A DNA stretch of 64,000 bases, taken from positions 32,267,843 to 32,331,842 of the forward strand of contig OZ026838.1 in NCBI GenBank assembly GCA_964023205.1, written 5' to 3'. Below are positions 25,785-63,100 of this stretch, piece by piece. The translations under genes and the position numbers were made by a program. The first letter of the stretch is position 1. Each line of letters starts with the position of its first letter. The stretch comes from Lutraria lutraria. Its lineage: Eukaryota > Mollusca > Bivalvia > Venerida > Mactridae. A model generated the notes under the pieces. The model worked only from the letters and a program-made list of their open reading frames with translations, made no database searches and had not been told where the DNA came from.

Positions 25785-26345
25785 GAATACAGCACTGGTT
25801 GGGTACCAGTATCAGGTCTCATATAACACCAGTCGGGTACCAGCGTCAAGTATTATATAACACTGGTCGGGTACCAGTATCAGGCCTTATACAACACTGG
25901 TCCGAAACCAGTATTAGGCATTATACAACACTGGTCGGGTATCAGTATCAGGTCTTATATAACACTGGTCGGAAACCAGTATTATAGGCATTATACAACA
26001 CTGGTTGGGTACCAGCATCAGGTCTTATATAACACTAGTTGGGTACCAGTATCAGGCCTTATACAACACTGGTCGGAAACCAGTATTAGGCATTATACAA
26101 CACTGGTTGGGTACCAGTATCAGGCCTTATACAACACTGGTCGGAAACCAGTATTAGGCATTATACAACACTGGTCGGGTACCAGTATCAGGCCTTATAT
26201 AACACTGGTCGGAAACCAGTTTTAGGCATTATACAACACTGGTCGGGTACCAGTATCAGGCCTTATACAACACTGGTCGGAAACCAGTATTAGGCATCAT
26301 ACAACACTGGTCGGGTACCAGCATCAGGTCTTATGTAACATCTAC
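25785..26345. repeat. Tandem array of hairpin units, about 17 copies
   Basis: Units of about 32 bp of the form ACTGGTCGGGTACCAGT or ACTGGTCGGAAACCAGT joined by 'atcaggccttatacaac' or 'attaggcattatacaac'. Each unit can fold on itself (ACTGGT/ACCAGT), and the two unit types largely alternate. Probably in the 3' UTR of the minus-strand gene. Confidence 0.9.
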
Positions 26346-27169: not shown

Positions 27170-30100
27170 CTAAGCAAAATAAGTTCAAAACACTTAAACT
27201 ATTGAACATATATATTTGTTACTCAGAATTTACATATACACATGAATCACATGGTTAAATGTTGCATATTATCGGACAATATTTGTACATGTTGTATTCT
27301 GAGTTAATAGATAATAGAATTGTAACAAGAAGTGTATGTGAAGCAAGGCCAACTGGATAGTAAAACCTTGACCTACTGACCTCAAAATCAATATCCGAGG
27401 AGCTAAGGCCAAATAGTTCTCTAGTTATTGCTGGGAAAGGTTCGGTTATAAATGGACAGACCGACGGACCATCTGACAATTTCAAAGCAACACATCCCCT
27501 TTGCTACGAAAGGTGGCATAACAAATATCACATTCTTATTTGACTGTTGATTGTTAATGGTTAAAACATCAATGGTGTGAATATTATAGAACTAAATTTA
27601 AGGGAAAAAAGAAAACCTGCCACTTAAAACTAACATACTAGTAAGAATAAGAATACAGAAGGAAATGAATCAACAAAAGTAGAAAATAAAAGATATCCGG
27701 CATTTAAAACGTAAGACAAATCTAAGTAGAAAGTACTAAACTACATACACAAGACAAGGGTGCAGTTTCCATAGTAACAGGGAGTAATGGACCATTTCCA
27801 TTATTGACAAAATCTTCAACATCCAATTCATCTAAAAAAAATATTTTAGTAAAGTTTAAAAACAGGCACATGTTAGTATCTATAAACAAGTATCTCCAAT
27901 CTTAATGAAAAATATGCGATGCTGAAATACAGGGACATGATTTGGATATGTATCTTACACAGAACAGAACAAATATTTTATTATGACATAAACATAACAG
28001 TTAATCCTAATAACATATACAGTGCAACCTCTCCAGAGTGGCCTTCTCATGACCAACAACCTCCAATGAACAACATCATGATTTTTTTCCCACTACACAA
28101 ATTAACTATTAATTTAATATCTCTAGAGCAACAACCTCTCAACGACAACAACATAATATTGCTACTCCTAAAGGGTGTTGCTTTGGAGGGGTTGCACTGT
28201 ATGTATGTTCAATAGATTACTCAGTCAATATGTCAAGTAGTGAGAATGTTGTAATATATAAAAGTATCATAGATACATTTATACATAGATAATTAAAGTA
28301 CCTAATATATTATATAATTAGGGCTGCGGATCGTTGGGTAAGTGGGCGATCCAATCCAATCCATAATTCAACACTTGCGATCCACAAATCGAATCACAAA
28401 TCTTTTGTTATCAGTAACCCATCTAAAACTTCAACATTGTAAACCTGATGACAGCTAAACTTAATTTTCTTTTATGAATAATGAAGTAAATCTATATAAA
28501 TTGTTCCATGGCTTAAACTTATATATACTCCCTTCCAATTTTCTGGTTTAAGCCTATGACCCATTATTTAAAGATCCGATTGGACCTCTTGGCAAACAAA
28601 GTAGTCCATTATGAAACAATATATATTCAGAGAAAAGAAAATTTTAAGAACAAAGGCTACACTTTGTTAAAAAACAAGATCGTGAACCATGAATCTCAGT
28701 AATGACGATTAATCATACACGATTTTTCAATTTGATTCGTGATTACCCGAGTACTCTGATACTCGCCACAGCCCTATATATAATCCTAGTGTAAAAGCCT
28801 AAATACATATAAAGTATATTTACAACAATGACAAATATCAGGTAAATACTTGAACTTGTTATCAAATGAGTGAATTAGCGTCTACCCATATAAATAGGTT
28901 TAATACTTATTTTCTTGTTCATTAATATGACACGATAAATCCAAATAGATTTGTCTCAATAAATTATTACAAAACAGGATTTTTCATATAATGCCATAGT
29001 GGATTAGTATGGTGTAGGGATGGTGAATAATGGTGAATTTAGACCTAAAATGGCTCATAAACCAAAATTCATATGAATAAATATGTTTTGGTCTGTATGA
29101 CCTAAACACAGTAATATACCACATCACAACAACATACTAGCCCCCGTTGACTGTATGTATCAGCCGCACTAGATACCTTTGTGACCATTTATACGTTCCA
29201 TCAGTTCTAACACTTCAGATATAGACGATGCTGGTCTATTTTTTTTTCTGTTGTAAAATCTGTGATCAGGATACGTCGGTACATCATCATCAGATTGTGG
29301 CTGTCATATAAGAAACATAATAATCATTTCAAGCTTATATGCAGCACATGTATAACTATATTATGAGAAAATGGAGTTGATTTGTCACAATGCAATGTCC
29401 ATAAGAAATTAAACATCAAATTTAGAAAATAACATTATTTTTTCACCTCAAAAAATGGCTGCGAACCAAACTTGACTATAAAATTGCTGCTCAAAATAGG
29501 ATACACATAGAAAATATAAAATCCAGTATAGTCACTAAATATCAGAAAATGTTGATACAAAATAATAATTATTACATATATGAAGATAATTTTGTATGTA
29601 CGATACATGTATTAATTATATTTTTAAATTATTACTCCTAAATTTACTTAACATGCATTTTTTAAAACAATGATGGAAATAGCTTTTTTGCTAAATGCCA
29701 TTTTTTTATAGAACATGGAGAAGAAAGCAAATTGGTCGAAGTCAGTACGTGTTGAACATTACCTTAACAGGAGAAAAGTGCATGATAAAGATTATTCTAC
29801 TCACCACACTTTCGTATGTACAAGAAGATTCACTTGGTGGTGGTTTGAAAGTTGACATACCTTCACTCATGTTTGATTTGGCTATAATGTATACAGAAAG
29901 ATTTTTCAACATTAATTAATATTACATTCTACGATGATAACTGTAGCAGAGTAATACAACCGACTATATTCAAATGCCTAACATTCATTATCATACATGC
30001 AAATGATTGGGCAATTAATTAGGCTTAAATTAAAATTAAGTTTGTTTGCCCTTTACCGACCGACCCGAAGAAATCACGCCGACTCAAAAGATCTTATTGC

Positions 30101-33100
30101 AAAATCTGGGAGAACTTTATTTTTATACTTCGGAAAATATACATGTACTCAGTGCTTTCGATAAACATTTAAAGTAGGTATCATTTGAAGTAATGAAGGA
30201 AAACAATCATGTGTGTTAAGGCACTGAGTACATGTTTATGGTTGATTAAAGCACACAATAAATGGTTGTATGGTAGCAGAATGCATAAAACGAATATAGA
30301 ATGCTTCTAGATGGAAGTGTAATTTCATGCTAGGTAAAGGTCAAATTCAGAAATAAAATAAAATATTTTCCCTACCTACCGACCCTCTTCTAAAGTTCAG
30401 GGTCGGTAAAGGGCAAACAAACATATTTTTAATTTAGGCCTTATGCTGGGTAAAAAGAGCAGCAATATACCAGTAATTAAATTTCAAGATTTAATTTTGT
30501 TTTAAGGTGCGTCGACAACTATATATAGTCATGTAGCACGCATTCAAATAAAAGGAAAGAAATAAGTATATAGAGTGCAAAAAGGATGATATATTAACTA
30601 GATTTCAAACCACTATTCAACATGATTGTAAGTGTATACTGGTACTACATAACACAAAATTTCTTGAAATCAAAGTTATTCCAATTATTTATTCATACAT
30701 ATTTAACATTTCTTTCTTTACAAAGTCAGACCTACTTATGATAATAAGATATAAGAGGTAATCAACCTGGAATCTCTACAAAATACATTCTTGAATTAAA
30801 CAGCATTTACTCAACTAGATTTTAACAAACCGGTATTTTATTAAGAAAATTATACAACTTCATGTCAAATATAAAACCAGACCATGAGATATTTCTTGAG
30901 TTATTACTTGAAAACCAAAGTTTGAACGGATGGACAGAAGGACAGGGGAAACACTTCCGCCATTTCAAAAAAAAAAAAAAAAAATTCACTGAAGATCCTT
31001 ATAAAATCTCATACTCTTACACTGTTAGTAAGTAATACAAATTAGACAGATATCAGGGCTAGCCGTAATTTCAAACTTACGTCCTAAAGTAGCTGACACC
31101 ATACTGAACTCATCCAGACGAGCCAAGTAGTTCTGATTCTTGTGGTTTTCAGTGATTGGATCTTGAGGTTCTTCAAGGGGTTCTTTAAGTTCAATGTCTT
31201 CTTTCTCTTTCTTCTCAATCCTTTGTTCTTTTCTTTTCATTCTTATCAAAACAATAGCTATCAGTATAGCAACAATTAACAAGAATGCTACTACTGCTAT
31301 AGCAATAACTGAAAACAGAAAATATCAATGTGTGAATTGAAGTGTTTGCGAAACACGAATGCCCCCTTGTGACCTTTACCTACTGACCTCAAAATCAATA
31401 GTGGGTCATCTACATGTAATGACCAACCTCCAATCCAAATCTGAAGAGCTTGGGCCAAATCATTCTCTAGTTATTGGTCGGACAAGGTTTGGTTATGGAT
31501 GGACAGACCGACATGTGCACAGTAAAGGGGGTTTATTACTTTGCACATGTCGGTATTATAATATGGGTAATCAATAGGTGTTCTTATTAAGATGAATCTA
31601 ATATGTTTCTCATAGGGTACATGGCAGATGTAACATTCACCGCTCAGGGTGGCAGCCATGGTCCAGTCGGAAGTGTTCTGGGCTTGTCACCGGCTATCCC
31701 ATTTTAAATCCCTGTCACAGCAGGGCATACCCTTCCATGAAAATTTAATAAAAATGTTGAATTTACTCCATATGTGGCGAAGTTACATTTCCATACAGAA
31801 GCAAGGGTAAGTTAGTCCTGGTTAGAATATCGTACAGGAAAGCTGGTTAGGTGAATCAACCGCCAAGTATGTCAGAAATTTTGTTGGATAATGGTGTAAA
31901 TTGAAGAAAAATAGTTTTATAATTTCTGCCTATTACACATGTATAAGAATTGGAGAGATTCACAATAACAATACGCTTGCTTATTAATAAAATATTTACA
32001 AATAATTTCATCTTCAAGTTTCTCTCTTGATTCAAATGTAATCTCTTTTTCGTAAGTCCTGGAAGAACTAGGGGTGGTTATCTGTGTAACAACAACTGTT
32101 GTATTGCTGGGTAATTCTGGTACGGGACCAAAATATTCTGTCTCTGCTGGGCCAGGATTCCATGGTGGTAGCGTTAACTAAAATGACATTAAATCAAACA
32201 ACATTTAAAATGTACTTTGTTGAAATCAAAATTGATAACAAACAAGAGGGCCATGATGGCCCTATAAATGCTCACCAGGAGAAAAGGTCATTTGGAGATG
32301 AACATTGTTGAAGTTTTCTATACGAGTCCAAGTAAGATCAAGTGACCCATCTGGGCCGTTTTTTATCCCATGGCCATTATATGAACAGATTTAAAAGAGG
32401 TCCATTAGACAAAGCTAGATACCAAATATCTTAGCTCTAGGCCTTGTGGTTTCGGAGAAGAAGATTTTTCAAATTTTCCTATATAAAATAGAATAAACCC
32501 CAGGGCAGGGCCAATTTTGACCCCGGGGCCATAATTTGAACAAACTTGGTAGAGGTCCACTAGACAATGCCACATACAAAATATCTAAGCTCTAGGCCTT
32601 GTGGTTTCGGAGAAGAAGATTTTTTTAATTTTCCTATATAAGTCTATATAAATCAAGTGACCCCCGGGGCGGGGCCAATTTTGACCCTAGGGCAATAATT
32701 TGAACAAACCTGTTAGAGGTCCACTAGACAATGCTACATACCAAATATCTTAGCTCTAGGCCTTGTGGTTTTGGAGAAGAAGATTTTTCAAATTTTCCTA
32801 TATAAAATAGAATAAACCCCAGGGCAGGGCCAATTTTAACCCCGGGGCCATAATTTGAACAAACTTGGTAGAGGTCCACTAGACAATGCCACATACAACA
32901 TATCTAAGCTCTAGGCATTGTGGTTTCGGAGAAGAAGATTTTTTAAATTTTCCTATATAAGTCTATATAAATCAAGTGACCCCTGCAGCGGAGCCAATTT
33001 TGACCCTAGGGCAATAATTTGAACAAACTTGGTAGAGGTCCACTAGACAATGCTACATACCAAATATCTTAGCTCTAGGCCTTGTGGTTTTGGAGAAGAA

Positions 33101-36100
33101 GATTTTTCAAATTTTCCTATATAAAATAGAATAAACCCCAGGGCAGGGCCAATTTTAACCCCGGGGCTATAATTTGAACAAACTTGGTAGAGGTCCACTA
33201 GACAATGCCACATACAAAATATCTAAGCTCTAGGCATTGTGGTTTCGGAGAAGAAGATTTTTTAAATTTTCCTATATAAGTCTATATAAATCAAGTGACC
33301 CCCGCGGCGGGGGCCAATTTTGACCCTAGGGCAATAATTTGAACAAACTTGGTAGAGGTCCACTAGAAAATGCTACATACCAAATATCTTAGCTCTAGGC
33401 CTTGTGGTTTTGGAGAAGAAGATTTTTCAAATTTTCCTATATAAAATAGAATAAACCCCAGGGCAGGGCCAATTTTAACCCCGGGGCCATAATTTGAACA
33501 AACTTGGTAGAGGTCCACTAGACAATGCCACATACAACATATCTAAGCTCTAGGCATTGTGGTTTCGGAGAAGAAGATTTTTTAAATTTTCCTATATAAG
33601 TCTATATAAATCAAGTGACCCCCACGGCGGGGCCAATTTTGACCCTAGGGCAATAATTTGAACAAACTTGGTAGAGGTCCACTAGACTATGCTACACACC
33701 AAATATCAAAGCTCTAGGCATTGTAGTTTTTGACAAGAAGATTTTTTAAATTTCCTATATAAGTCTATGTAAAATCAAGTTACCCCCGGGGCGGAGCCAA
33801 TTTTGACCCCAGGGGAATAATTTGAACAAACTTTGTAGAGTTCCATTAGTCAATAATACATACCAAATATCTCAGCTCTAGGCCCTGTGGTTTCAGACAA
33901 GAAGATTTTTTAAGTTTTTTCTATTTGTTGCCATAGCAACCAGAGTTTTTAATGAAATTTAATTTTTTGAACAACTTTGAAAGGGGACCACCCAAGGATC
34001 ATTTCAGCAAAGTTTGGTTGCAATCGGAATAGCGGTGTAGGAGGAGATGTTGTTTTAAGTAAATATTGACGCCGCTTCACGACGAACGACGCACGATGGA
34101 CGCAGGGCGATCACAAAAGCTCACCCTGAGCACATTCGTGCTCTGGTGAGCTAAAAAGTCAAACAGTAATTAATTCAGGAACTGTTTTTTGGTATACCGG
34201 TACTTTCATTTTCTTCAAATTAGGAATTACATATTATTAAGATTTTTTTCCTGTTATACCAGTGTGGTATCATTTACAAAATTTATTAAACATGTCAACA
34301 AATGTTTGAATATCTATCCAGCTTTGGAAGAAAAGCTTAGGAAGAAAGAAATAATTGAAAACTTAAGAAAAACTGAAAATTAATATATTTTCACAAGAAT
34401 TAAAATTCTAAAATCAGAATAGAAATGAAAATTATGCGTGATCACTAGTATGGTGTTCATAATACCAATGGATCTATTTTACCTTTGTATGATCAACTGG
34501 GGGCTGAGTAGATGCTGGTGTTGTTGTTTTAGGTGGTAACAAGGCTGCTTCACGAGTTTTACATCCAACTATTTCAGGTCCAAACACTTTAGCATGGCCA
34601 GTTGAATTCTTGTTGTCACGGAGATCTTTCAAGGGTCGTAATGAAAAAGGTAACTCACCAACTGGGTAGAATGTCACCTCTATGAAAATCAAAGGACATT
34701 AATTCTAAATTAAACATCAAATTCTTTATTAATCCTAAATGGCTTTAAATATTTAGTAATGTTAGAATGATGGTATCGTTGGCAACATTATAATTGTCAC
34801 ATACAAGTCAAGTCAAATATTTTATAAGCTTTTAACTTTTAGATTTTGTCACCAAATAAATTATCTACATTGGCGGTACAATAATCTTATAGAATGAAAA
34901 TAAATGTACAATTAAACGCACATAGAAAATTTCATGTTTTACCTAATGTTTTACACAACCTTTGAACTTAACTCCAAAATTTTTTTTTTTTTTTTTGAGC
35001 TGTGAGGTCACTAGTAGAAAATGACCGAGTTTGATGTTTGTGGCACAGTGATTAAGCCTCTTCATGTTTGTTCTACAAGCATACAGATTAGTGCATGTCC
35101 AAGAGCGTTTTGAGAGAAATTCAATGATACCAAACACCCTTTTTTTGTCAAAAATGAAGTTAAACACTTCTAGAATTAAAGTGACAAAACTATATTTAAA
35201 TAAACCCAATAATGAATAAATCAAATCATACAATGAATTAGAGCTTTGTCACGGAAGTGATTAATACCCCCATTCCCACTTTGACACTAAGAATGCAATA
35301 GTACACTATATGGCTAAGTTCAAGGGCACATAACTCTGGAATGAGTGGATCGCTAGGCATGAAAATTATGTATTGCACATCTACACTTTATGGTGATAAT
35401 AAAGTAGTTTGCTCCACAAACTTGTGTTACTGTATGTGGATGGACGGATCGACATACAGAGTGACTCCAATATACCCCCTCTCAAACTTTGTTTGCAGGG
35501 GTATAACAAAATAAGAAAATACAACTACATACCTGACATACAACCAGTGAAATTCTCATAGTGAATATAATCTGCTGTATCTTTAATGTCAGCAAACTGT
35601 GAGTCCAGTATACCACCTATCATTATAGTATCCAGTTCATCTAGTGAATTATCAGGAACTTGAACTCTTCCAACACCTTCATCATCAATCTAAAAATAAG
35701 AAGACATTATACTTTAAGATAAACAGATCATAGTATCATATCATATAAGAAATATGCTATGGAAAAAAATCTTAGTTTTTCAATGTTGAATATAAAAAGA
35801 GATTTTCTAAACATTTTAGTTCTTTTATTTGTTAAATGTGGGAAATAGGCTACATCTGTACCATAACAAATCTAAGTACAAAATTAATACACATCATATT
35901 CATTAAGCAAAAATAAAATAAATACAGAATAAATAAAAAAATTCAGGAACTTTATAAAAATTCAAAACCAAAGCCCCGAGAGTTTATCCCGCTATTCTAC
36001 AAAAATCTGCCATAGAGAAATACCCAGCAGACCACATTATAGAATTTATTAACGAAATCAGGAAAGATATGACTAAAATAGTTTAAAGTGAAATACAAAA

Positions 36101-39100
36101 GTGTGTACACAACAAACAAAGTCATGCAGTATTATAAACAGACAACCCAAAAACATGTTTCACACCACAAAAGCACACCAGAAAAGCATGTTTCACACCA
36201 CAAAAGCACACCAGAAAAGCATGTTTCACATCACAAAAGCATGTTTCACACAACAAATGCATGTACATGTTACAATGAGAACATATTGCAAGCAACATAA
36301 AAGCTGTTTTTGTTTTCAGTGGGGGTTTAGGTCAAACAACAGCTAAGGTCACTTTTTCAAGCTTTGATAGTGGAGGTAAACCCTAGGTGTACACCTGGGT
36401 AAGGACCATCAACCTAGCTTAAGCAAGCAGTACAACTTCCTTACATGTGGTCCAAGGTGGGATTTAAGCCTACAGTGGTGAGTGATTACTAGTCAGAGAC
36501 CACAACCACCGAACCATGGAAGTCCCCAATAGCAATATATATGTAACCACATGACCATGGAAGTCCCCAATAGCAATATATCTGTAACCACATGACCATG
36601 GAAGTCCCCAATAGCAATATATCTGTAACCACATGACCATGGAAGTCCCCAATAGCAATATATCTGTAACCACATGACCATGGAAGTCCCCAATAGCAAT
36701 ATATCTGTAACCACATGACCATGGAAGTCCCCAATAGCAATATATCTGTAACCACATGACCATGGAAGTCCCCAATAGCAATATATCTGTAACCACATGA
36801 CCATGGAAGTCCCCAATAGCAATATATCTGTAACCACATGACCATGGAAGTCCCCAATAGCAATGTATCTGTAACCACATGACCATGGAAGTCCCCAATA
36901 GCAATATATCTCTAACCACATGACCATGGAAGTCCCCAATAGCAATATATCTGTAACCATATGACCATGGAAGTCCCCAATAGCAATATATCTAATACTT
37001 AGTAAGCAGGAAAAATCACTTAAACTACAGATGCTATGAGAGGAAAAACAATACAGCAGTAGAAAAAGATGAAAATTCAGTAGGCAGAAATCAGTACTTA
37101 ACACAGTTTATAAATGCCACAATAATATCTTGCCCTATGACCTTCAATCATGATACCAAAATATTTCTTATTATGACTAAGATTTATTAAATGCTACATA
37201 TTCTTTCAAATCTATCAAATTTAGAAGCAATTATTATTATATTGAAATCAATCCAGATTTTGAATTTAGTAAGTCACATTTTATTAGATAACTGTACTTA
37301 ATGTATAGCTAAGAGAATAACGTCATACTTTTATATAGATACATAGATTCAGAAAAAATAGCACATAAATCAACATTACATATAGATTCTTAACACAACA
37401 AACAATACATGAAGCAAACAGTACAATATATCACAACAAAACAGCAACATTACACAGACAAAGTCTAGACTGTTGAAGCTTTATGTACATATTAAAAGAA
37501 AGCTAAACAATGTCTAAATACATCCAAATTTAAAGAATTGCATTATAACAACACAAATAACATGGTATTTAACATCAGAAAATGTCATAAATACAGAATA
37601 TTCATGTATAAAAAAAATGTAGATAGAAACATAAATGTGTGCAACATGCAAATTAAAAGCAAAAGTTCATAGGAAAAGATTGATTACAGAGAAATAGACT
37701 TGTCTGAGTGAATGTAAGATTTACTTCGTTACTTTTGCAATGCTATTATTAAGCTAGATACCATTTAAAGCATTATTTGTCAATACGACAGACAAAGTGA
37801 GTGAGCTAGCAGGGTCCAAAGATTAAAAAACTGAGATTGGAGATCTCTTTCACAATGAAAGCATCTGATTGGCTGAGTCTACAGATCAGTCTTTGAACTG
37901 ACCAATCAGAAGGCTCCATTTTCAAACTCAGTTCTATAAGCTATGTCCCATGAAGCAACAGTAAGACAGCTTGAAGTTGGACTACTTACACTGACTGTTT
38001 TGTTTCTAAATTTCGGATGATTCTCGTCTCTTACCTATGTCGATGGGATGTGCAATAATGAATTAGTTAAAAGCATATATTCTGGTATATGAAAATGTAA
38101 ATTAACTAAGTCTAAGTAATGCATATGAATTACTAATGCTAAATAAGCACAAATCTAGTGATCTTTGTTGACAGATGTGGCTTTTATCAAAGTTTACATT
38201 GTTGGCATGCAATGAGTTGAATCTTTATGAATATGCCCCACTACTTTAGTTCTAATGTTCAACATTAAGATTTTTCACCAAGTTATCACCTTATCATCAA
38301 ACATGATAATTACTTAGTCTAGTGAAGGTCAGCTTAAATTACTATACTTTAGCTTAACAAAACTTGAGTGACTTGAAACTCATTATTATCTATGACTGAA
38401 CTGCTCTCTTATATATCAAGTTAATTAATAATTCTTTAAATATCTTATAAATGGAATGTAATAAGTCTTTTGAATACAATAAGAAAAGCAAAATGCATGA
38501 AGCAATCATGAGTAGTAAACTTTTGAGTCCTCAAACATCTTCAAGCAAAGAGAAATGTCAGGAATCTTCCATAAGATTTTACCTTTAAGCATATTGTATG
38601 CGTGTTATTTTAATGCATCAATTCATTCAAATTTTATCTTTAGCATAATGCATTAATTAAAATCATGCCACAATGCTGCAATTGAATGGTTGCCATTGCA
38701 ATGCCATCTTTCAAGAAGCAGGCGCAATAGCTAAATAAGTCAACAGCGAACCTGATTTAATACTGCAGATAACTTGTTCATATAATTATCATTTTTGTAG
38801 CTTTTAATTATAAATAACATTAATTCATTGTCAAATTCTTTAAGTACAGATTTTCATTAAATTCATTAATGAGACGGGATTAGTTTTTTTGTCTAGTACT
38901 TAAGACCATTGTTGTCAATCAAAAAAATTTTTTTTTTACAGATTTAGATCAGATTATTCACTACATGCGCATGCCTAGATTTCTATGATAATTATATAAA
39001 TACAAACTCATTCTACCATAACATACACTTTCAGATTCATATAATTATACATTCATAACAATATCACAACATTCATCCCAAACCATACATCCAACATTCA

Positions 39101-45100: not shown

Positions 45101-48100
45101 ATAGATATGGGGTTAATGCTAATATGGTATTCTAAATAAAAACTAACTGTATCATGTTAGTAATATATTCATTATTTCCCTATAATGACTCATGTATTCA
45201 TAAACAAACCAAACAATTTTACTGTTTAGTATTACATATCATTATTCATTAAAGGACAGTTTATTGATCAAAATCTCTGTCAAGAAAAGGGCAAGACAGA
45301 AAGAGGAACATAGAGAAACACAAATTTAAACATCTAAAAAGAAATAAACAAAAAACAACAAAAGTAATTAGAAAAGAAAGCCAAATTAAAATATTTGAAG
45401 CAATTTCAAAGCCTAAGCATGGAAGCATCTTTAAAGACATGTGAAAGTGACCATATAGTTCAAATAAGTGATAAATATAAATAAAATTAAAAAATGAGGA
45501 TATGGTCTGTTCAATGTGATGTACCGCATCAAAGATTTTGGTAAACATGATTGAGGGACAATACCAGAAACAGTGTTTGGTCAAACATAAAAATATGCTG
45601 GAAGAAATCAATTTGTAATTCGAAAAATAAACAAATTTTAATCATAAAAGCATACAAACCGAATTACAAAGAATTTTTCATATATCCTTCAGACAATTCG
45701 TCCAAAAACCTTTTTTTTATACACACTCTGTTATGTTTTAAAAATGCAATTTAATCTGTTAGCCACAGAAATGCTTCATTTTTAGATAGCTTACTGATCA
45801 AACAAATTAAACAATATTTTTTTTGTTACTAAGCATACCCTACTTAAGTAAAACAACAAAATATTCTTCTTTAAAGATGACATTAAAGGTAAACAAAAAT
45901 GAAGTACAATTCCAGAACAAACTTACACTAAAGGATGATACCAGACAGCCATGCAATAACTGGCTAACTGTTTAAGTCTTTCTATTTATTACTGATATAA
46001 ACTTTTAAATATTTCCTACAGAACATGCTGTATGAAAAATCAACAGATTAATGTAAAGTTCAGGAAGTATATTGGATAGAAAGTTTAATTAATAGATTAT
46101 AAGCACAATTAACAGATTAATGATTTCAACATACCTTTCGCTAAATATGAAAGCCAGTAACATGTTCTTGGTTACGCCTTTCTTCACCTTGAAGATAAGT
46201 TCCAGACGTTCACTATTGGTTTCCTCAGCGTCTTTCTCAGGTTTGTATTTGTACTGTAGGATAGATTGACCTTGAAAATATCCAGAGGATTCTGAAACAG
46301 AATAGAATAGAAAAATTGTTTGAGCATAACAGACCATATTCAAATAATTTTAACATAGTTTATGTATAATAAAATCACAATGCAAACTCCATACTTGACT
46401 TTTGACCTACTAGAGTGACCTTGACCATGGAGGTACAGACCTGGTTCTTGTGCGCTACACATCCACACTGTGTAATGCAGGTCAGCAATCATGTTAAGTG
46501 TTTTTGAAATCCATCAATAAACAACAATGTTACAGCCTTAACAAGAAATGTGACGCTACACAATTTTTTATGTGATTCCAATATAGCCCCAACGACAGAT
46601 AGTGGGGCTATAAATGGGATAGGTTAGGTTAGCAGAAACCAGGAACTACTTTAAGCCTTATCACACATACCAGTTTCACAAGTGGGTCCAGCATATTCAC
46701 TGGCAGAGCAATCACACGTAAACTGTCTATCTTGCCACTGTTCCTCACATAGACCGCCATTATGACAAGGTTTAGATTCACAACCATCCATACACACCGG
46801 AGATACAGCTACAATAAAAACAGTACACAATACATGTATAGCATTAAACACCTCACTGTCATATATAACAATACACAACATGCATGAATGGTATAAAACA
46901 CATCACTGTCATTTAACAGTACAAACATCTATGCTATGGTGATGCTGGTATTGAAAGATCGGCAAAGTATTGATATGTAATTTCTATTATCAAATTGAAT
47001 GTAGAGTGTAGTCATCATATTTTAAATAAGAATAGAGTTAATTCTCCTTTGAAGAAATAGCTTTTTTTGCAAGAAAAACTACATACAAAATCAAGCGACA
47101 AAAATTTTATATTCTGGTAATTATCATAGAATTTAAGAAAATTTATTAAATTTAGAGTAAAAAGTTTGTCAAACTCTATAAAATCTCTTAGTCTTCTGTG
47201 CATAAAATTTAAAATATATGAAATAAACACAAATTCATTCGTACTTGTAGTTTTCTTTGCTGTGTTATGTAACTCAAACACCTTTTCTCCAATCTTTAAG
47301 CCTCTTATACAACCATTTATTGTAGGATATTGAGACATATTCCGCGGTACCCCACCCACATACACATGTACAATAGGTGCTGATTCCTTAGATGGCCTGA
47401 GTGGTATCACCATTTCTTCTTCATCTGAAACAATCGAACAAAACACAAAATTAATTTTGTTTGAATTAAAGAGAGCATAAAATAAACATTCCTTATAGAA
47501 GTGGCTGCAGCTGTGTCCAGTGGTCAATGCACTGGACCTGTAAGCAGGCGACCAGGGTTCAAATCCTAGTTGCAGCAGAACATACCCTTGCATGAAAATT
47601 TGAAAAAAGTATTGTTCCTCCATATGTGGAAGAGTTGTCTGCTGCTTGTAAATCTGGATAAATATGTACAACAAGACCCCCGCAAGTGGCGCCAATGATT
47701 GTCTGTTCATCGCCTCAGTGTGATCTATTCACCATGTTGCTACCTCTTATAGTTTCTGAGTTATGAGCTACATTAAAGTTTTTGCACAGACGCAGATTAT
47801 GCAGTGATCACAATAGCTTGACTTTTAATTCGAAAACAGTCAAGCAATAAAACTATGTATCAGCCATACATCTGATTATGATAACAATACCAACAGTAGC
47901 AAAAAACCTGCTTGTATCAGACATTATATATTCATCAATGCAGATGTATGTCAATATCTAAGTACATGTATAAGTATTTCAATGTAAACACTTACTACAC
48001 TTAAATAATTATGTTACTGTAAAATATTTGTCTTTTTTTAATACTTATATTGGTACAAAGTTTTAAACAAATGAGAATTTTCTAAACATGCTGAAAGGCT

Positions 48101-51100
48101 TTGAAAGAAGATAATGAGAAAATTTAGAATGGTAGAAAAAACAACAGTAGTAAATATTCACCTGGGAATGGATCCTGTGAATAGATCTCTAAATCTATTT
48201 TCTTGTAGGAATTTCTAGCAGGCTCATCATCAACATTTACCATGACTTTAATGTAACCATCTAGATTATCTATAACAACCTGGTTCCAATTTCCATCATC
48301 CAAGTTACCTGGATAAAAAGTTAAGATTACAACAATAAGAAAATCTGTAAATTTGGACTTCCATTGATTAAGTCACATTGAAATCAAGTTTGTAGATACA
48401 TGTGGAAATGTCAGTGGCTCTTTCCAGGATTTTAACTGGGATCTACATACACTATTCAACTGGAAAAGTTGCAAAAGGTAGGTACCTAAGGTATGTTTGG
48501 AAATAGAATTAGTAAATACAAAATCACATCAACCTTCCTTCCTTAGTTAATTTGGTCACATAGCCATAACCATGGCCATTTTTTCTGGCCAAATGAATAA
48601 CTCAGCTGTGTATGATGGCCACAGTTCCCAACCTTAGTGGCTGTTATTCAAAGATTGTACTGTTTATCAAAGCCACTATTCATAGGTTTGTCTTTATATA
48701 GAGCAATAATTCACAGGTTATATTGTATACAGAATTATTTTGATAAACTTATTATAACTGAACTACGATTACAGTTTACACAAAACTCTTTATTGTAACA
48801 AGTATTACATGCAATCACAATACAAGGGAAGTATCATGTTAATTATTATTAAGTGTAGATGGGGAATTTAGGCCGTGATATGTTAAGACACCAATGGGTA
48901 TACTAGTATCCAAAGAGTGTCTGCTTTCCTGGGGAACAGACATGCATGTTTTTGTTAATAAATGATTTGATCAGGGAAGTCTTTTTCGGACAATATCATT
49001 ATTGACCAGCCATGGTCATATATACATACAGACATTGACCAGCCATGGTCATAGACATACAGACACTGACCAGCCATATGGTCATACAAACATCGACCAG
49101 CCCTGGTCACACAACATTGACCAGCCATGTCATACAAACATCGACCAGCCCTGGTAATACAAACATTTTTCAGCTAGGGTCATCTATTGGCCAGCCCTGG
49201 CCAAAAGACATACTGACCAGCCCTGGAAACCCTGAGCAGCCATGCTCGTACTGACATTGACCAGCCATGGTCAAACTGAGCAGCCATGCTCATGTTTCAA
49301 TATTATTTTGGATAGCCCTGCCTAGCTTTGACTTCCTGATCTGACCTATGTGCAACTACGGAATTACCTAAGCGACTGCTTGTTACGAGCAAAACCGAGT
49401 AGCAATATAACGTAAAATACCGAGGAAAGTGGATCCCCGAATTTAGAGTGAATTATTTGCCATGGACAGCCTTCCATGTTAATTTCGATTCTTTTCAAAT
49501 TAATATGCATGCCTATACCCCAAGACATCAAAATCACGACTTGAATTGAGTTATAGAGGCCTAACTAATCACATAAAACACAAAAACAACAGGCACTATT
49601 GTGTGATTTGCACAATTTGCAATGCTCTTACAGTTTAGCAACATTTCGAATGATATGATTACATGTACTAATTGTTGAAACAATATGGCAATAAGTGAAG
49701 TATAGTTATCATAATTACAATAATTTCACAATATCCATATGCATAATATTGTATGAATAGACATGTTATATCAACTGTGTTGAAAGACTGTAGCTTTCAA
49801 GTGAAAAACTGCAAGCGTGGTCAACTCGCCCAGGAAAAACCAGTTTTCTGGAAACCTGTGCCCATTTGTCATCGCATAAGGCGACTGTCGCACCACTGAA
49901 TGTTGGGCCTCATTCTTGCAGAATTAAACATTATGTTGATATTTCTACATACATCATTGCACCTAACTCAATATCTTAAATGTTGAAGTTTATATAACTC
50001 CTAAAGGTCAAATAAAGCATTGAATTTGAACTTGATGTCGTCAGTAAATAGAATTGCTAGCACTGATTTTTCAAATATCCAAAATCCACTTAATACACAG
50101 GTGTATTATCTCCATGCATTCTACCAGGCAAACTGGTTTTGTAATACATGTCCATAGGGACAAATGTAGTCTGCTATAAGTTGTAATGCAGAGTACTCAA
50201 AATAGTATGTCACACAAAGCAGAAGTGGAAGCACTAATGTCATTTTAACCCTTATACCAATAAACTTGTCTCAAATTGGGACTCTTCTTCAACTAGATGT
50301 AATGTTCTTCCTTAGGTCACTGTTCTTACGAGGTGTCTCAGACTATTGTATCATTAGCACATCTCTCCTTTTCCCGCACCATGTTTATAAATTTGCACTG
50401 TCCTAGTTGTATGGTCCTAGGTTTAGCACTAGTGTTCACCAAGATACAATCTAGCGTGTCACCGTCTTTTTCATATTGTCGATTTTGGGTTATTGTATGA
50501 ATACGTTATTATTGATGATGTCCCTCCAATAATGGTTAAGGTTGCTGCTGATCACCTCTTTGTTGCTTTCTTTGTTGTTTTGTTTGTATCCGCAATTCTT
50601 CATTTGGGCACTGAAATCATAAATCATACTTGGCAGCAATTTGGTGTCAATGTAGTATATATCATTTAACTTATATGGATCTGATACTATTACTATCTAA
50701 TCTGTTGTAAATCTTTGTTTTCAAGTAATTTAAGGTTTCGAAGTATTTGTTCCATTATTAACTTACGGTAACAACTTGTTCATAAGTGACAGATTTACCT
50801 ACTTATCTATTTACTTAAAAGTGTGTGATCATTATACATAATGTTCTAAATCCAATGATTTATACAAATACACTACATAAGTGTTTCCCTGGACATAACT
50901 TTTCCATGTAAACTAACTATAACCAAACAACTCTATATAACAAGGGTGTGGAGGGTGGGATTAGGTGTTTACAGTCTGACTTTCAAGTACAAAAAGACCG
51001 CATCACTCTCTGTCACGCATTATATAGCACGGACAATGGTCACTCGACTGTGACTTCCGACCGCTTTCGCCGATGAATCAAAACAAAGTTACAAAATAAC

Positions 51101-54100
51101 TTCAATGTATTTCTGATTAAATAATTGGTATTATTTTGATAAACTTATTATAACTGAACTACGATTACAGTTTACACAAAACTCTTTATTGTAACAAGTA
51201 TTACATGCAATCACAATACAAGGGAAGTATCATGTTAATTATTATTAAGTGTAGATGGGGAATTTAGGCCGTGATATGTTAAGACACCAATGGGTATACT
51301 AGTATCCAAAGAGTGTCTGCTTTCCTGGGGAACAGACATGCATGTTTTTGTTAATAAATGATTTGATCAGGGAAGTCTTTTTCGGACAATATCATTATTG
51401 ACCAGCCATGGTCATATATACATACAGACATTGACCAGCCATGGTCATAGACATACAGACACTGACCAGCCATATGGTCATACAAACATCGACCAGCCCT
51501 GGTCACACAACATTGACCAGCCATGTCATACAAACATCGACCAGCCCTGGTAATACAAACATTTTTCAGCTAGGGTCATCTATTGGCCAGCCCTGGCCAA
51601 AAGACATACTGACCAGCCCTGGAAACCCTGAGCAGCCATGCTCGTACTGACATTGACCAGCCATGGTCAAACTGAGCAGCCATGCTCATGTTTCAATATT
51701 ATTTTGGATAGCCCTGCCTAGCTTTGACTTCCTGATCTGACCTATGTGCAACTACGGGATTACCTAAGCGACTGCTTGTTACGAGCAAAACCGAGTAGCA
51801 ATATAACGTAAAATACCGAGGAAAGTGGATCCCCGAGTTTAGGGTGAATTATTTAGAAATTGCATGCATGTCTGTTCCCCATGAGAATTTTTCCGCCACT
51901 GAAAATGCCAAGCTTTTTCCCCCAAAAATTCTCCTTATTGACACGAGGAATTAAGTGAAGAAAAACTTTCTCCACCACCATTAATGGTGAAACCACTAAA
52001 CTAATACACTAGTATCAAACGAGTTAACAATGATTATGTTGTGTTCTTTAGGTTATCTATATTTAAAGCAAGGTTTATTCGGTTTTTCAATCGTTTTGTT
52101 ATAAATTACTTATAATACCAAATGTAGGCCCCTTAGCTATGCCCTTATCTGACCAATGGATGCCCTCTTGTCTGAAATAATTTATCTTCTTTAAGGGGTT
52201 TAGGTGAAAGTTTGGTCAAATTTGTTTGTCTGAAGTTTGTGTAATTATTATTTAATTTTATTTATAATTTATCTATTATGATCATTATTCTTTTTTATTT
52301 ATTTTCTCTTATTCACCATATTTAAGTCTTGATAGACAGTTATATACATTCATGAGTTGCATGGAGTATCTTGTTAACTCTAAGTTGCCCGGAGTATAAT
52401 AAGGTATATGCTGCTGTACAAGGGTACCTAAATGAATTATGACCCAAGTTAATCCTTGTGACATTCTCTTTGTTCTGGGAGCTCTTTTGGTCAGATACAT
52501 AATTCTAAATAGTTCCTTTATAATATGTGATTAACCATATCACATGTTCTTTATGTTTAGCTGTATATTGCTACTCAGAACATTTGGTTGAATGTTAACG
52601 TGCTTTCAGATGTATTTTTTGTTATTAAATGCTAGTTAGTGGGATAGAATGCTTTCGCATTTGGTGTGAATATATTTCAAACCCTTTCTGGTATTGAAGC
52701 TAGCTAGTATCCTAGACCTCATCATCTGAAACAGAGATAAGGCATCATCAATTGAGTTTAATACCCCAGGTAGGTGATTTATATGGGAGGGGTATTTTAA
52801 TGCATTTCATAGTCAATGCTTGTATACAATTGACATTTTGACAAGGGGATATTCATTGTCAAATTTAAAACAACTTACAATTTTGTCATAGGTCTTGAAT
52901 AATACAGATTGCTTCATCTGAGCTTATGTGTCATACTGAATGTAGATTTGGGTCTGTATCATCATTGTTGACTGACCTTTTAGATATGATGTGATGCATT
53001 AATCCGAATTGATAGGCTCATTTTTTAGAATAGCTTATAGGAGTTATATAGTGTACTGTTTTATTTATTTAATGATAATATTATTTCATTAGTTTATTAT
53101 TATTTTCATTTCCTTAAATGGTGTTTGTAAATGGTCATGTCCTTCTACATGTTACTATTTATTCATTTTTGTTTTACTGTCTCTGGGTTTTGTATTGCTG
53201 AATTTGGCTTATTTATAAATTTCCAATATCAATTTTTTAAATTAAATCTATTTAAATGTTGGGGTTGTCATAATTCTTTTCTTTTCTATTAATTGTCTTT
53301 GGCAGAACTTCTGCCCCTTCCAACAAACTTCCTGAATATCTTTGGCGCAACAATTATTAAGCCTCAAAGTCTGTCATTTCCTTTTGGTTTGCCCATTGGG
53401 ATATCGACATTTTGTTATGCAAGTACTCATGTGGACCTTTAAGTATTGACAATTTAATAGGACAAGCCTGAAAACTATTTCATATTGCAAATTTTACTAT
53501 CATCCTTAATCACAACTCAATTAATTTAGTTTGGTAATAATAACTAGGATACTATATTACTCAGAGGTCTTAGGGGATTATTAGATTAAACTTGTTAACA
53601 TTGAGATACTGTAATTGTTATATAGTGCCCAGCTCCCCAGTGAGCTAGCTTAATAGTTTTAACATAAATTGTAGTTCTATGTTATCCATGAAAAGTTTTA
53701 TCTTTTAAAACAGTCACAACTTACATTAATATATTCATATTCAATAATGAAATGTCACATGCTTTATCGCAATTAGATAAATTGATGCATGAGATTAAAA
53801 CACAATTAAATATTGTGCCAGTTCTGTTGACCCCAGCCAGTGCCCCCACTCATTTCTAATCTAACTTTGTTCAAAATGTGGGAGTAGAAAATATTTAAGG
53901 GTCGCCTATCAGCATAAACGGAGGAAAAATACATCAAATAGTCCAAAATTAACTTTTTATTACTTTTACAATAAGTACCTCGCTGCTTTAAGCCTCCTTC
54001 CAAGTAAAACCGAACTGTTTTAACGTTGAACGCAAGAATTTCAGACGATGCATAAAACGTGTGTGATAAACCAAGGTCAACGCCGACTGGTTTTCCTATA

Positions 54101-57100
54101 ATTTGCCCAAAATCGTCAACTACAGTCGAGAAAACGAAACCCGTCTACTTGTTACACGCATGGTTTACGCGCATTTTTGTATGAAATACGATCGAACCTA
54201 CATTAACCAAAACCCGTCTAGCCTGTTATACGTCATAAGATACATGCGTACCCAAACTTTTCGTACGTGTTATCTCGCAGCTGGTAAATTTTGTTACGTA
54301 GTAGTTGATTTGTGTAATTAACTCAATATTCTACGTGAGTGGGGAAACTGTCGGGCCTTTATATTAGCAGTGATAAGTTAACGTCTTCACCCCTACAAAT
54401 GTTACGCTTCTGACCTAATTGGGCGTGAATTCCATAATCAACAAAGTACTGAACGGGTTGGAATTTAGTATCTCCCGGAAGTTATTTATATCACCGGAAC
54501 TGAAGTTTTGATCATAGCGCGGTGGCTATGTCGGTACTAGGAGCTGTCATTTCACTTGAAATGCGGCTCTGTTCCTCCATATTCAATGCTGAACATCACC
54601 TTCAGTCTTGGACTGCGGATGGGCACCATCCCACTGCTTTAGAATAGCTTCAAAGCGAATAATGGGCCAATGAAAAGAACAAATCTCACCGCTATTTCCC
54701 TCAGTCGTATTGTTAACGTCTGAACATATTAGCCTTCAGCAACGTTGAGGTGCCTCCCCGCTTGTTGTGCAAGCGCTCGCTTCCAACCACGTGTCATTCT
54801 CAGTTGATTAGGTGTTTACAGTCTGACTTTCAAGTACAAAAAGACCGCATCACTCTCTGTCACGCATTATATAGCACGGACAATGGTCACTCGACTGTGA
54901 CTTCCGACCGCTTTCGCCGATGAATCAAAACAAAGTTACAAAATAACTTCAATGTATTTCTGATTAAATAATTGGTATTATTATTCACTAGTAGTACTGT
55001 ATAATTATGTAACCTACATACCTTTCACATGTCTTGTTTGATCCAGAATAGTGTTGTATCGGTTGAATTTTGCCACAATTTTATTGCCTTCTAAAAGTTC
55101 TACCTGCATAAAATTGTTTAAATGATCGTGGATATACAGAAGTAGACAGTTCTTCAATAAAGTACGGAAATTGAACACTATTGTAGAATCCAGGACACTG
55201 GTGATATTACTGTCCACAAAATGAAGATGGGACGACGTATGACCAAGAAATGTTACAGCATCTTCATTTATATCTGAAATATAATCATACAATCATTTAT
55301 AGAACAACACCATGAAGAATGACTTGAGAAGAAAAATTTAATTTACGACAAAGTAGCTCATTTAAATGTTAAATTTATTTGTTATGAATTACGATGCAGT
55401 AGTAGCAGATGATAAAAAAGTGTTTGCACATGGTACAATTTAGACAACTAACATACAGCTAGTGCACTTTAGCATGTCAAAGATACTAAAATCAGATCAT
55501 GCAGTCTAATATTGTTAACAATTTTGTTAACATTATACATCATACATAAAATTGTAATATTTAATATAGCATAAAAAGCAATTTTCTTGAGGTAATGCAT
55601 GTGTAAAGTGTGTCTCGGAATGAAGTCCCTTGAGAATCAAGCTGTAGGATTAAAGATGTCTTATGAATTTTGGAATTTATTCCAGTAATAAGATTTCAGT
55701 TTGAATGCATCCACACAAAAATATTTCAACTACATTATTAAAAATTCATGGACTTAATGAATCTTGCATCATTGAATCCCAGTCTGTAGAAATATCATTT
55801 TCAACAATGATTTAACAAACAAATTAATATCTACTGGCATAAAACCAATAACCTACATCTCGACAAAGCAACACCCTTTGGAAGTATCAAAATTATGTTG
55901 TTGAGAGGGCGTTGCCCTAGAGAGATTAAATTAATAGTTCAATTGTGCAGTGGGAAAAACATGCTGATGTTGAAGGGAGGTTGTTGCTCAAGAGAGAGCC
56001 GCTCTGGAGAGTTTACACTGTATTACACATTCTGATAGAATATATCCCACTGACACATGGTCTGTTAATAATGATACTACTTACCTATTTCACAGTTATG
56101 ACCAGAGTGTGCCCATGGGTTTACACATTCACAATGATAGTCGCCCCATTCCTCCACACATTCGGCACCATTCATACATGGATTAGGCCAACAACTAGCC
56201 ATACATTTCCTTTCCACACCAACAGTACTATAATAGGAAAAAAAAAACAGAAATTTAATACTTTTTATCATATCTACTGATCTAAAGTCAACTTTAATTG
56301 GCTTTCATTATTTGTTTATACCTAATGCATCAATAAAATGCTCATATAATAGTTTGCTATATTACATACAGTCAAACCTGTAAACAAAGGTGGCCTTTAT
56401 TCGGAGGTGCTCACTAACACAGGTTTGACTGTATTTACAAACAAAATCCTAATTCAATCTATAATACAATTAAATCATCAAGACAACGTGTTTAATAATA
56501 CAAACATTCAATTAACAACCAATTAATACTATATGTACATTCATTTATTTTGAAATAAGCAAAGGACACCGTTGTAATTTGATGAATTTCACACAATTCC
56601 TGAACATAAAGCAGCGTTCAATAAACGCACATGCATAAAGTATGTGGCAGCTTGACTTAACCTTATACAGACAAGGCAATTACTACATGCCCCACTTACC
56701 ATTTGATGCTAGGGGCGGGCTTAAAAAAGTTGTTTTATACTCACGCAGAATCTATGAGATCAGTCAGTGGATAGGCCTTATTGTTGTACTGTAGCCCACG
56801 CATACATCCAATAATTCCATGTATATCTTCTAATACTTTCTCTCGTGGTAGACTGTAAAATATGTCTAATATAAAACACAAAGAACATAATGTGATTTGA
56901 TTTTTACAGAGGAACATGCAGGTCATTATCCATTGGAATTATTAAACTAATGTTTGGCATAATACAAATGCAAAAGAATTATAAACACAAGTTAATATTT
57001 CTCTAGACTATTTGTTTGTTAATATCGCATTTTACGTCCCTTTTCAACAGTCAGAGTCATATGAGGCAGACAGTTCACCTAATCATCTTTCCTGGGAAGA

Positions 57101-60100: not shown

Positions 60101-63100
60101 GTCAAACTCTACAACAAATAAACAAACATAGAAGGACCTACCATTATCACAGTTGCACCGGTTCCCACCTATGCATTCATTGTTTTCAGAACAAGCACAA
60201 TGCCCCGGGGACCAGTGACCGGCACCCAGATATTCTAACATCTCACCATTAGCTGATGTGAACCATGTCTGTATACCTAGTCTATAACATGAAACAAAAT
60301 AGGGAACTAAATCGATAAGCTGCCCAGGACCAACACTAATACATGTACATTGTACATGTAATTACCATTATGATGTACAGTTAAAATGATGCTTTCGTGT
60401 TAAAAACTTAGTAACAGTGTATAAAGTGTAAAAGATTCTCAGGATTTTTTCTTCATTTATTTGAAATTCAACTCTATAATATAAATGACTTTAGTCTTCA
60501 TTTTACCAGAAAGAGAATGCTGGAAATTTCAAATTCAATTCAAAGAAACACTTCATGCTTAAAAGTCATTCAATTAAAATATGAAGTTAATACAACACAC
60601 TCTGACAACAGAGGCAACAAAATATGGCTTTTATGCACTGTTGGCCTTTTATCAGAAATATATTAGCTTTGGTTTATGCATACTAAACAGGGTCATTTGC
60701 ACCAACAACAGACATTAACCCAGGTTTGACTATTCTAATACATATTACATCTATTGTCATGTGATCACAGATGTATATTTTCTATACCTGAGAGGTGCCT
60801 GTTGACAATCATATCTAATGTATTGTTTACACCAAGCAGATTCTTCTGATAATCTGATTAAATGTTCCCCCTGCATCTCTCTGAAACACAATATTATATC
60901 AAAAACTAATGTCACAATTTCTTGTAAGATGATACAAAAATTGAAAAATACATTTTAGTTGAATATTAGATTATTTCTGGTACAGTGCAAACTCTCAAAA
61001 GCAACACCCTTTGGAAGCTAGAAGCAAAATTATGTTCCTGCTGAGAGGTTATTGCTATAGAGAGGTTGAATAAATAGTTAAATTGTGCAGTGGGAAAAAA
61101 TCACGCTGTTGATGAAGAGAGGTAGTTGCTCAAGAGAGGGCCACTCTGGAGAGGTTTTACTGTAGTTTTAACTGATTATCAGTGAAGCCATATAGACATT
61201 ATTTCCTGAATATGGATTTTAATAATAATGCTAAATAAATCAATAATTAATTGATGTGTCAGTTGTAAGTGTTCACTCAAAGACAAGATACATCAAACCT
61301 GTGAACATAGGCCATCCTTGGGAAAGACATAATGTGGCCTTCAGTTGGAGGTGGCCACTAACACAGGTTCAACTGTCCATAAAATACAATTAGATACTGA
61401 ATGGCTGAGTATGTGATATATCTAATCTACTGTAAACATTGCTGAACTCATTTGGAATGATCTTCCACATCATAAATCTTTATACTACATTGATAACTAC
61501 ATGCGTCTGATTGAAATAATTATCCTCTGATATATTACATTGTGAGTATTGTTCAGTGGACAGCTTTTTCTAATCCTTTCTCTGTAATTATATCAGTACA
61601 ATCCAATATCAATAAACAGCTTTATTGTATGTATTTTGTACCATATAGTGAAGTAATCTAATGTTTGTCAGACATGATACAACCATCAACATTTCTGGGT
61701 ACTATTTCCCTGTGTCAAAGCCTGCTTCAGATACAATACAGAATGGTGTTACATTAATAAAAGAATGCAAGGATGAATTTAATTTTGATATCTGATACAC
61801 AACATGGATATCTGATACACAGCTAATGGAATTCTCATTAGCAATTGTTAAGTACATAACAAATATGGTCATAAAATAGCAATTACTGGCCGGGACTCAC
61901 TTCAAATTACTTTCGCATCATTAGCATAACATATCAAGAAGCACAACCAACCACTAAAAATTCTTTAGAACTTAATAATTACCATATTAAACTAGAGATA
62001 TATAATCTCATTGATGGTAGAAAACACAAGATAAATTGTGGGATGGAAATATCATGCTTTGGAAGTAACAACTGTTTTACTAGAAGCATAATTTGGGTAC
62101 AAAAAAGAATTCACTGAAATAGTGATTTCCATCGGATAATCTTAATAAAAACTTCAGGATTTTAAGAAAAAACAAGGCAATATAAGGGTATACAGTCAAA
62201 CCTGGATTAGCGGCCACCTTAAAATAAAGGCCACCTAGTGAATAAAGGCCATCCTTTACAAAACTGTCATTATTTAGAACATAATGACCCCCAAATAAAG
62301 GCCACCTGTCATTAAAGTCCACATATTGTCCTTCCTGATGGTGGCCTTTGTTCACAGGTTTGACTGTTTATCAATATGGTTATTTAGTATGTTACCTGTA
62401 AGATATATATATCTTCAAGTCTCTCATCATTTTCTGCCTCACAGTTGTATTAGGGGCCAGGTTATGATCTACTATTGTCCTGCCATAAAATTCATAACTG
62501 ACCTCATGTCCCATATCACACTGTACATACACAGGGTCCATTGGTCCACTTCCATCAAGGTCGATCAACCTGACCCCTGATTCTGTGTACCCTGCTTGGT
62601 AATATTCATCACAGGTATGTTTATATTTTGCTGAAAGTAGTAAATTGTAAATATTAATAATTGTTCCATTATATTTCTGTTTTATAATGATATACACATG
62701 AACTCACTCTTAAAATGCTCATTTCATGAATGCACCTCAGTTTTTAAACAGTGTAGAAATGAAATACTACAATTCAATGAAAACTTTAAAATAAACATTG
62801 AACAATGCTTAAAAAGATCTTGGCATCCGCATCAAACCTACGTACCAAAATGACACGCCCTTCCTGTATAATAAGTTTCGGTACAATCACAGGCCACACC
62901 TCTCCACTCGGACAGACAGATACCACCATGTTTACACATCCTGTCACCTTGACAATAATCTGTTATATTACAACCATCTATTATCAACCCAGATGCTGCT
63001 CTAGTTTGTACAAGGTCAAGGGCATCTTCAACCTGACCTTGAACTTTCAAATTCCTGATACAACCAACAAAGCCTTCACTTTCTGAAAACAACAAAAGTA

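Follow-up and report, generated by a model that had tools for sequence, protein, structure and literature searches.

A gene-less element with split direct repeats in a bivalve genome moves as a composite and keeps its repeat pairs alike

The composite element and its parts

The window analyzed here is a stretch of 64,000 nucleotides from the bivalve Lutraria lutraria (contig OZ026838.1, here C7; C7:32267843-32331842). It harbors an element of about 6.25 kb in which two direct repeats, A and B, are split around two interiors, X and Y, in the order A1-X-B1 fused to A2-Y-B2. A first-pass annotation, made from the letters of the window, had read this arrangement as split direct repeats of the PAT/Ngaro style, and our repeat comparison agrees with the anatomy it described: an A repeat of 725 bp, a B repeat of 177 bp, a B1/A2 fusion and unrelated interiors. 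The parts of the element are as follows.

48734..49458, plus strand: A1, the left split direct repeat, 725 bp; the element starts with the TTAT at 48735
49001..49294, plus strand: hairpin array in A1, 12 degenerate units with the consensus TGACCA-GCCA-TGGTCA
49459..50958, plus strand: interior X, 1500 bp, without Pfam match; a stand-alone A-X-B form also exists
50959..51135, plus strand: B1, the right split repeat fused to A2, 177 bp
51131..51134, plus strand: TTAT core in the B1/A2 fusion, resembling a circle junction; also found at both outer ends
51130..51854, plus strand: A2, the second A copy, 725 bp
51397-51690: hairpin array in A2, a repeat of the A1 array
51855..54805, plus strand: interior Y, 2951 bp, without Pfam match; a stand-alone A-Y-B form also exists
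54806..54982, plus strand: B2, the right end, 177 bp; the element ends with the TTAT at 54981

The two A copies differ by three mismatches over 725 bp (offsets 628, 707 and 713) and the two B copies are identical over 177 bp, reproducing the substitution counts given at first. X and Y have no common sequence in the self-comparison of the window, and a chance origin of the long repeats is excluded. As had been reported, ATTATT is present at the two ends and in the B1/A2 fusion; in the latter, these 6 bases belong to A and B at once. Its outer A and outer T vary between loci and are therefore host bases (48734 and 54982 in the window), leaving TTAT as the common core.

Apart from the long repeats, the repeat listing contained short matches of low identity and a 37-nt inverted match (78%) between A and the A2/Y edge; no terminal inverted repeats exceeded those of shuffled sequences. 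Rfam returned no match at E ≤1 across window positions 48000-56000, the B1A2 region had no phage match, a 29-mer of B had none in a viral collection and a 22-mer of B had none in a contig collection of genomes. The end pattern was met once in the viral collection as an 18-mer (locus L002), while a 20-mer match to it was judged to be chance once its locus had been compared with the element.

Recurrence of the composite and concerted change of its repeats

We searched the host assembly (728.5 Mb in 71 contigs) with the B1A2 region (63 genome matches; 39 of 59 candidates scored), with B only (29 matches; 28 of 28 scored) and with the first 267 bases of A (37 matches; 34 of 34 scored). Twenty loci were fetched and then two more (L053 and L054); the B matches outside the fetched loci lie at C12:20.79, C6:5.59, C18:20.08, C3:21.18 and C8:39.46 Mb. 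The 20 loci have the following forms.

Composites (3): L033, L034, L035
A-X-B (11): L036, L038, L039, L043, L044, L046, L048, L049, L050, L051, L052
A-Y-B (3): L037, L040, L045
Incomplete (3): L041 (A and 192 bases of X), L042 (A and 206 bases of Y), L047 (A and Y, B unmatched)

L044, L048, L049, L051 and L052 have common flanks and were counted as one insertion. Including the window, the A-X-B-A-Y-B composite is found at four loci with nearly equal spacing, two of the other copies being near-identical to the window and one older. Over A, X, B, A, Y and B, each segment of L033 and L034 is 98-100% identical to the window, while the segments of L035 range from 80 to 99% and are accompanied by extra insertions. 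The full lengths of the three young composites are 6249, 6253 and 6263 bp, and the flanks are unlike one another at all four loci. The genome search that the first-pass annotation had proposed has thus yielded the composite at three other loci, and because the whole unit recurs there, it is mobile as a unit and not a chance tandem.

To follow the repeats within this lineage, the three young composites (window, L033 and L034) were aligned base by base and their differences polarized by the other loci. The window and L033 differ from L034 at A offsets 68, 332, 480 and 678, in A1 and A2 alike, and at B offsets 101 and 110, in B1 and B2 alike. The state of the window and L033 is derived at A offsets 68 and 678, where 16 of 16 other aligned A copies carry the other base, and in both of their B copies at offset 101, where all 11 others with a letter differ. 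At B offset 110 it is the two L034 copies that are derived (13 of 13 others differ). Offsets 332 and 480 were polarized by eye against L035 only, the latter against its A1 copy only.

The same pairing extends to larger and older changes. All three young composites carry a 6-bp insertion in A1 and A2 alike, which neither A copy of L035 has; elsewhere it is present in L036, L038, L039 and L041 and missing from L037, L043, L044, L046, L047, L048, L049 and L051. Two substitutions occur in A1 and A2 of L035 and in none of 18 others. Differences unshared within a locus occur at offset 628 (window A1), 627 (L034 A2) and B172 (L034 B2); window position 48734 varies as well, being a base of the host. 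Private substitutions in X and Y number 13 and 33 in L034, 4 and 4 in the window, and 1 and 1 in L033. The A and B pairs are kept alike as the lineage evolves, while X and Y diverge independently. Such homogenization tells split direct repeats that are regenerated apart from a tandem that is static, and is the behavior expected of Ngaro/PAT retroelements, a rare class, or of an element working in a similar way. An unequal age of the two halves of L035 was also considered and dropped, as most of the excess differences lie at the edge of the hairpin array.

The insertion in the window is recent, as had been proposed from its repeats: 9 substitutions are private to this copy relative to the copy on C17. 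Identity of X to the window is 99.7% in L033, 98.9% in L034, 97.5% in L036, 95.8% in L039, 94.8% in L035, 93.6% in L038 and at most 88.2% in the rest; that of Y is 99.8% in L033, 98.7% in L034, 93.1% in L035, 92.9% in L040, 88.8% in L037, 79.8% in L047 and 76.9% in L045. In a tree of X, the composites are interleaved with A-X-B copies. The three youngest loci are composites, which has a chance probability of 0.011 (4 composites among 14 independent complete loci), and the ten tree loci below 90% identity are all single (L047 without B). With the youngest loci composite and the oldest single, the age trend fits a decay of composites to solo remnants, without proving it.

Coding capacity, insertion ends and genomic setting

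The longest stop-to-stop frames in the interiors of the window element are 112, 83 and 78 codons, so the limit of about 70 codons stated in the first-pass annotation was too low. No frame of at least 100 codons starting with ATG, GTG or TTG lies inside the element, and 39 interior frames gave no Pfam match at 0.01; a scan of 10 frames with E up to 1 produced sub-cutoff matches only, the best of which (0.0025) is the translated hairpin array. Among 18 copies bounded at both ends, we found no frame of a length expected for a reverse transcriptase (RT) or a recombinase. Frames of at least 100 codons are scarce in these copies, and the longest (206 codons) lies within the expanded array of L036.

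The lack of visible coding capacity is accordingly true of the window, and does not extend to older Y-type copies, since a decayed antisense frame is common to L045 and L047. In L045, an old A-Y-B copy, it spans 167 codons with a Cys/His pattern (L045:3498-3998, minus strand); L047 has a broken relative (about 4957-5376, minus strand), and a small local search detected weak traces in L035 (E 3.8e-5) and L040 (E 0.006). Pfam gave nothing for the L045 frame, even with E up to 1. Its Cys/His pattern is reminiscent of zinc fingers in Gag-like proteins of retroelements. Given the decayed frame in L045 and its relatives, the ancestor of Y may have been a coding interior whose reading direction was opposite to that of A-B. 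As a lesser extension of this idea, Y would derive from an antisense gene of a former helper, with L045 and L047 keeping a decayed zinc-finger-like frame.

L053 and L054 were rejected as coding partners: L053 is an X-type copy of old age and L054 an X-B copy truncated at its 5' end. Downstream of the former, broken frames resembling the RT of a long interspersed nuclear element, with a YADD motif, were seen by eye (L053:6577-7803, minus strand).

End counts were made by hand, with flank-sharing loci counted once. Of 17 insertions, 16 have an unaltered TTAT on the left, the exception being L045; on the right it is unaltered in 9 of 14, the exceptions being L034, L038, L040, the L044 group and L050. 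With flanking bases entered by hand, the base before the core is a purine in 16/17 cases (p 1.5e-4) and the base after it is T in 7/10 (p 0.026), four diverged right ends being left out and L034 included. TTAT may belong either to the target or to the element.

The hairpin array within A varies in size by locus, L036 having 57 units against 11 in the window by an identical counting rule (the expanded L036 array occupies 2600-5000 of the fetched stretch in minus orientation, at host C15:15.675-15.677 Mb). In each young composite, the arrays of A1 and A2 are equal save for substitutions common to both; in L035 they differ. Hairpin arms show 11 double changes against 4.1 expected from shuffles, a value found in 1 of 2000 shuffles, which is a hint of covariation at most, given 72 one-sided changes and the relatedness of the units. 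The best-conserved stretches of A in six old copies are the first 25 bases (96%), 126-225 (90-97%) and 501-675 (91-98%), and the array is less conserved than these. For B, compared over eight old copies, conservation is 93-95% in the first 25 and in the last 50 bases. A TATA-like run is visible by eye around A offset 670-690; its role as a start site is speculation.

CpG is not depleted at window positions 53800-54982, with observed/expected values of about 0.9-1.6 per 400-base window and 1.32 in the B repeat, compared with 0.36 for the whole window. The right part of Y (~53800-54805) falls within this block, which looks like unmethylated or promoter-like sequence.

Neighboring minus-strand frames match laminin G (best E 9.3e-6) and EGF (5.4e-5) domains, which point to an animal host. 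The element is flanked by exon-like minus-strand frames of a laminin G gene, recognized by eye at window 48160-48310 and 55020-55290. It accordingly seems to be intronic, with its right end ~40 bases from a putative splice-donor-like site. The window also contains a short interspersed repeat with copies 79-81% alike in two orientations (28017-28185, 55864-56023 and 60981-61164), found near L041, L044 and L049 as well, and its self-comparison revealed tandem arrays at 32291-33918, 36504-36993, 25787-26340, 22252-23249 and 17667-18136.

A proposed circle-junction mechanism, its rivals and known systems

In our assessment the chances are even that the composite is a non-autonomous element using a Ngaro/PAT-like circle-junction mechanism. 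This estimate concerns the mechanism and does not place the element in Ngaro or PAT, since neither coding domains nor a helper were found and the A2-B2 adjacency of Ngaro is not seen. Each cycle would pass via a circle joining B2 to A1, the ends being restored from the internal B1A2 acting as template or splint, a route already suggested for both Ngaro and PAT. A tyrosine recombinase (YR) supplied in trans would integrate the circle into an R-TTAT-T-like target, and the A-X-B and A-Y-B copies would be remnants resembling solo long terminal repeats (LTRs), left when B1 recombined with B2 or A1 with A2. The PAT/Ngaro-style assignment of the first-pass annotation stands for the split order, mobility and homogenization, but the A2-B2 spacing of 2.95 kb does not agree with Ngaro, and no RT/YR partner was found among the copies examined.

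Several observations weigh against the circle-junction mechanism. A2 and B2 are separated by 2951 bp, and no coding partner with RT or YR between the same ends was found among the 24 of 29 B matches examined; all 24 B matches within the fetched loci follow X or Y in non-coding copies. An RNA intermediate is putative for this element, and gene conversion at a long-lived master copy could make the repeats change in concert with no retrotransposition involved. The window and L033 both have A in A1 and G in A2 at offsets 707 and 713; this difference was therefore inherited, and homogenization is incomplete near the inner end of A. A-X-B copies (7 independent) are commoner than A-Y-B copies (3), though A offers the longer homology, fourfold that of B. 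Finally, stand-alone A-X-B and A-Y-B copies exist, which is part of the outcome that the first-pass annotation had named as contrary to its proposal, namely A...B as a simple element inserted twice in tandem; the age trend and the interleaving in the tree are more readily explained if these copies are solo remnants than if they arose as independent monomers.

A Crypton-like alternative, in which a circular element moves as DNA only with the help of a tyrosine recombinase, is rather unlikely. X- and Y-monomers would then fuse at TTAT like tandem-accreting integrative elements, and gene conversion would keep A1 and A2 alike. Such an element would account for the short identical core at both ends and the junction, for the lack of above-chance terminal inverted repeats and for the X-only and Y-only copies, and the inherited differences at 707 and 713 fit patchy gene conversion. 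Circles are proposed for Cryptons, and terminal direct repeats and non-autonomous families are described, in the consulted part of PMC3212892; the animal Cryptons studied there are nevertheless reported to have no terminal repeats, and youngest loci that are all composite with oldest loci that are all single are the reverse of active monomers occasionally fusing. We consider it quite improbable that two non-autonomous rolling-circle elements (of the Helentron/HINE or Helitron2 type) were joined head to tail. At the 5' end, TTATTTTGATAAACTT has an inverted counterpart, the subterminal TTATTTTGTAACTT, which lies ~36 nt from the 3' end and is itself a hairpin; the chance of such a match is 0.006 against random window segments, 0.027 against A+T-matched ones and 0.021-0.054 without regard to position. 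This match lends mild support to a rolling-circle origin, since HINEs, common in oyster, have such subterminal repeats and tandem arrays in the excerpts consulted (PMC4067079, PMC7492417), and the purine before the core and the T after it (16/17 and 7/10) may point the same way. The palindrome nevertheless sits at the extreme 3' end and not 8-35 nt inside, the advantage of the junction region over shuffles in folding is slight (11/200 fold as well), the HINE target is T-rich in the published excerpts, with at least 2 flanking Ts per side that are not seen on the left here, and concerted A1/A2 copies around two unrelated interiors are unexpected of rolling-circle tandems. Both the rolling-circle and the DNA-only circular readings predict the age trend and the concerted repeats less simply than does the Ngaro/PAT-like mechanism.

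A KolobokP-like or TRIM-like multimer with B-A as its long terminal repeat would have a precedent in the bivalve KolobokP multimers with common terminal repeats described in part of PMC9587614, and is very improbable here: in that description the KolobokP repeats measure ~450 or 660 bp, have inverted ends of their own and are whole at both ends, while the present B-A unit measures 896 bp, each outer end has only half of it, cut at TTAT, and the interiors are unrelated. Half units at the ends likewise led us to reject an LTR element with B-A as its LTR, and TG..CA ends were not seen by eye. A simple tandem of two independent elements is disfavored, as the composite recurs whole and its repeats change in concert. 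An assembly artefact joining two haplotypes or two distant repeats is highly unlikely, because the composite recurs at three other places with near-equal spacing and different flanks, giving four loci with four different flank pairs and locus-specific substitutions.

What is known of the upkeep of split direct repeats comes mainly from anatomy. In the present family, concerted change of A1/A2 and B1/B2 is visible directly in three lineages of a single non-coding composite, with the interiors as an independent clock, and the inner limit of this change lies between A offsets 678 and 707. It is possible, if doubtful, that a gene-less element with two unrelated non-coding interiors keeps its two split-repeat pairs in step either as a parasite of a tyrosine-recombinase retroelement, having only the outermost bases in common with it, or through a previously undescribed cycle of DNA-level circles and conversion. 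If it is true that a helper shares only the last 25-30 bases, the minimal sequences for the machinery would be defined and the family would be a natural assay.

Among known systems, the A1-B1A2-B2 split repeats of the composite are like those of Ngaro (DIRS order), whose order is given as A1-[ORFs]-B1A2B2, and its stand-alone copies recall the isolated AB repeats found beside Ngaro elements in Cafeteria and interpreted as solo-like, both as stated in the consulted part of PMC8547959. Unlike in Ngaro, gag, RT, RNase H and YR were not found in the window element, A2 and B2 have a 2.95 kb gap, and the 725-bp A contains a hairpin array; a non-autonomous Ngaro/PAT member would also be without RT, RNase H and YR. 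PAT elements, including Pat1-like and Kangaroo, equally have split direct repeats. According to the portion consulted of PMC4157794, PAT-type and Ngaro elements are known from molluscs, Pat1-like being assigned to Mollusca, and the internal repeat of PAT elements is variable in position, some having an inverted YR. The composite is unlike PAT in having no coding domains, the sole coding remnant seen being the antisense frame of the older Y-type copies.

The internal tandem arrays, variable interiors and possible subterminal inverted repeat resemble those of bivalve HINE/Helentron elements, from which the composite departs in its concerted A copies and terminal TTAT core, with no Rep-helicase seen. 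With Cryptons it would have in common a proposed circle and short terminal direct repeats, which the part of PMC3212892 consulted reports as 4 or 6 bp in many Cryptons and present in several groups; its repeats, unlike theirs, are split around two interiors, and no YR was found in the copies examined. A literature search for the phrase "non-autonomous DIRS or Ngaro", limited to that phrase, gave no match, although SIRE of Trypanosoma cruzi, the A2-B2 region of VIPER, is described as its non-autonomous version in the available excerpt of PMC6681497. Like SIRE in that excerpt, the family studied here includes a stand-alone A-B unit matching A2-B2 of a split-repeat element. It differs from SIRE (~0.4 kb) in that both A-X-B and A-Y-B forms occur and in that the non-coding composite is itself mobile.

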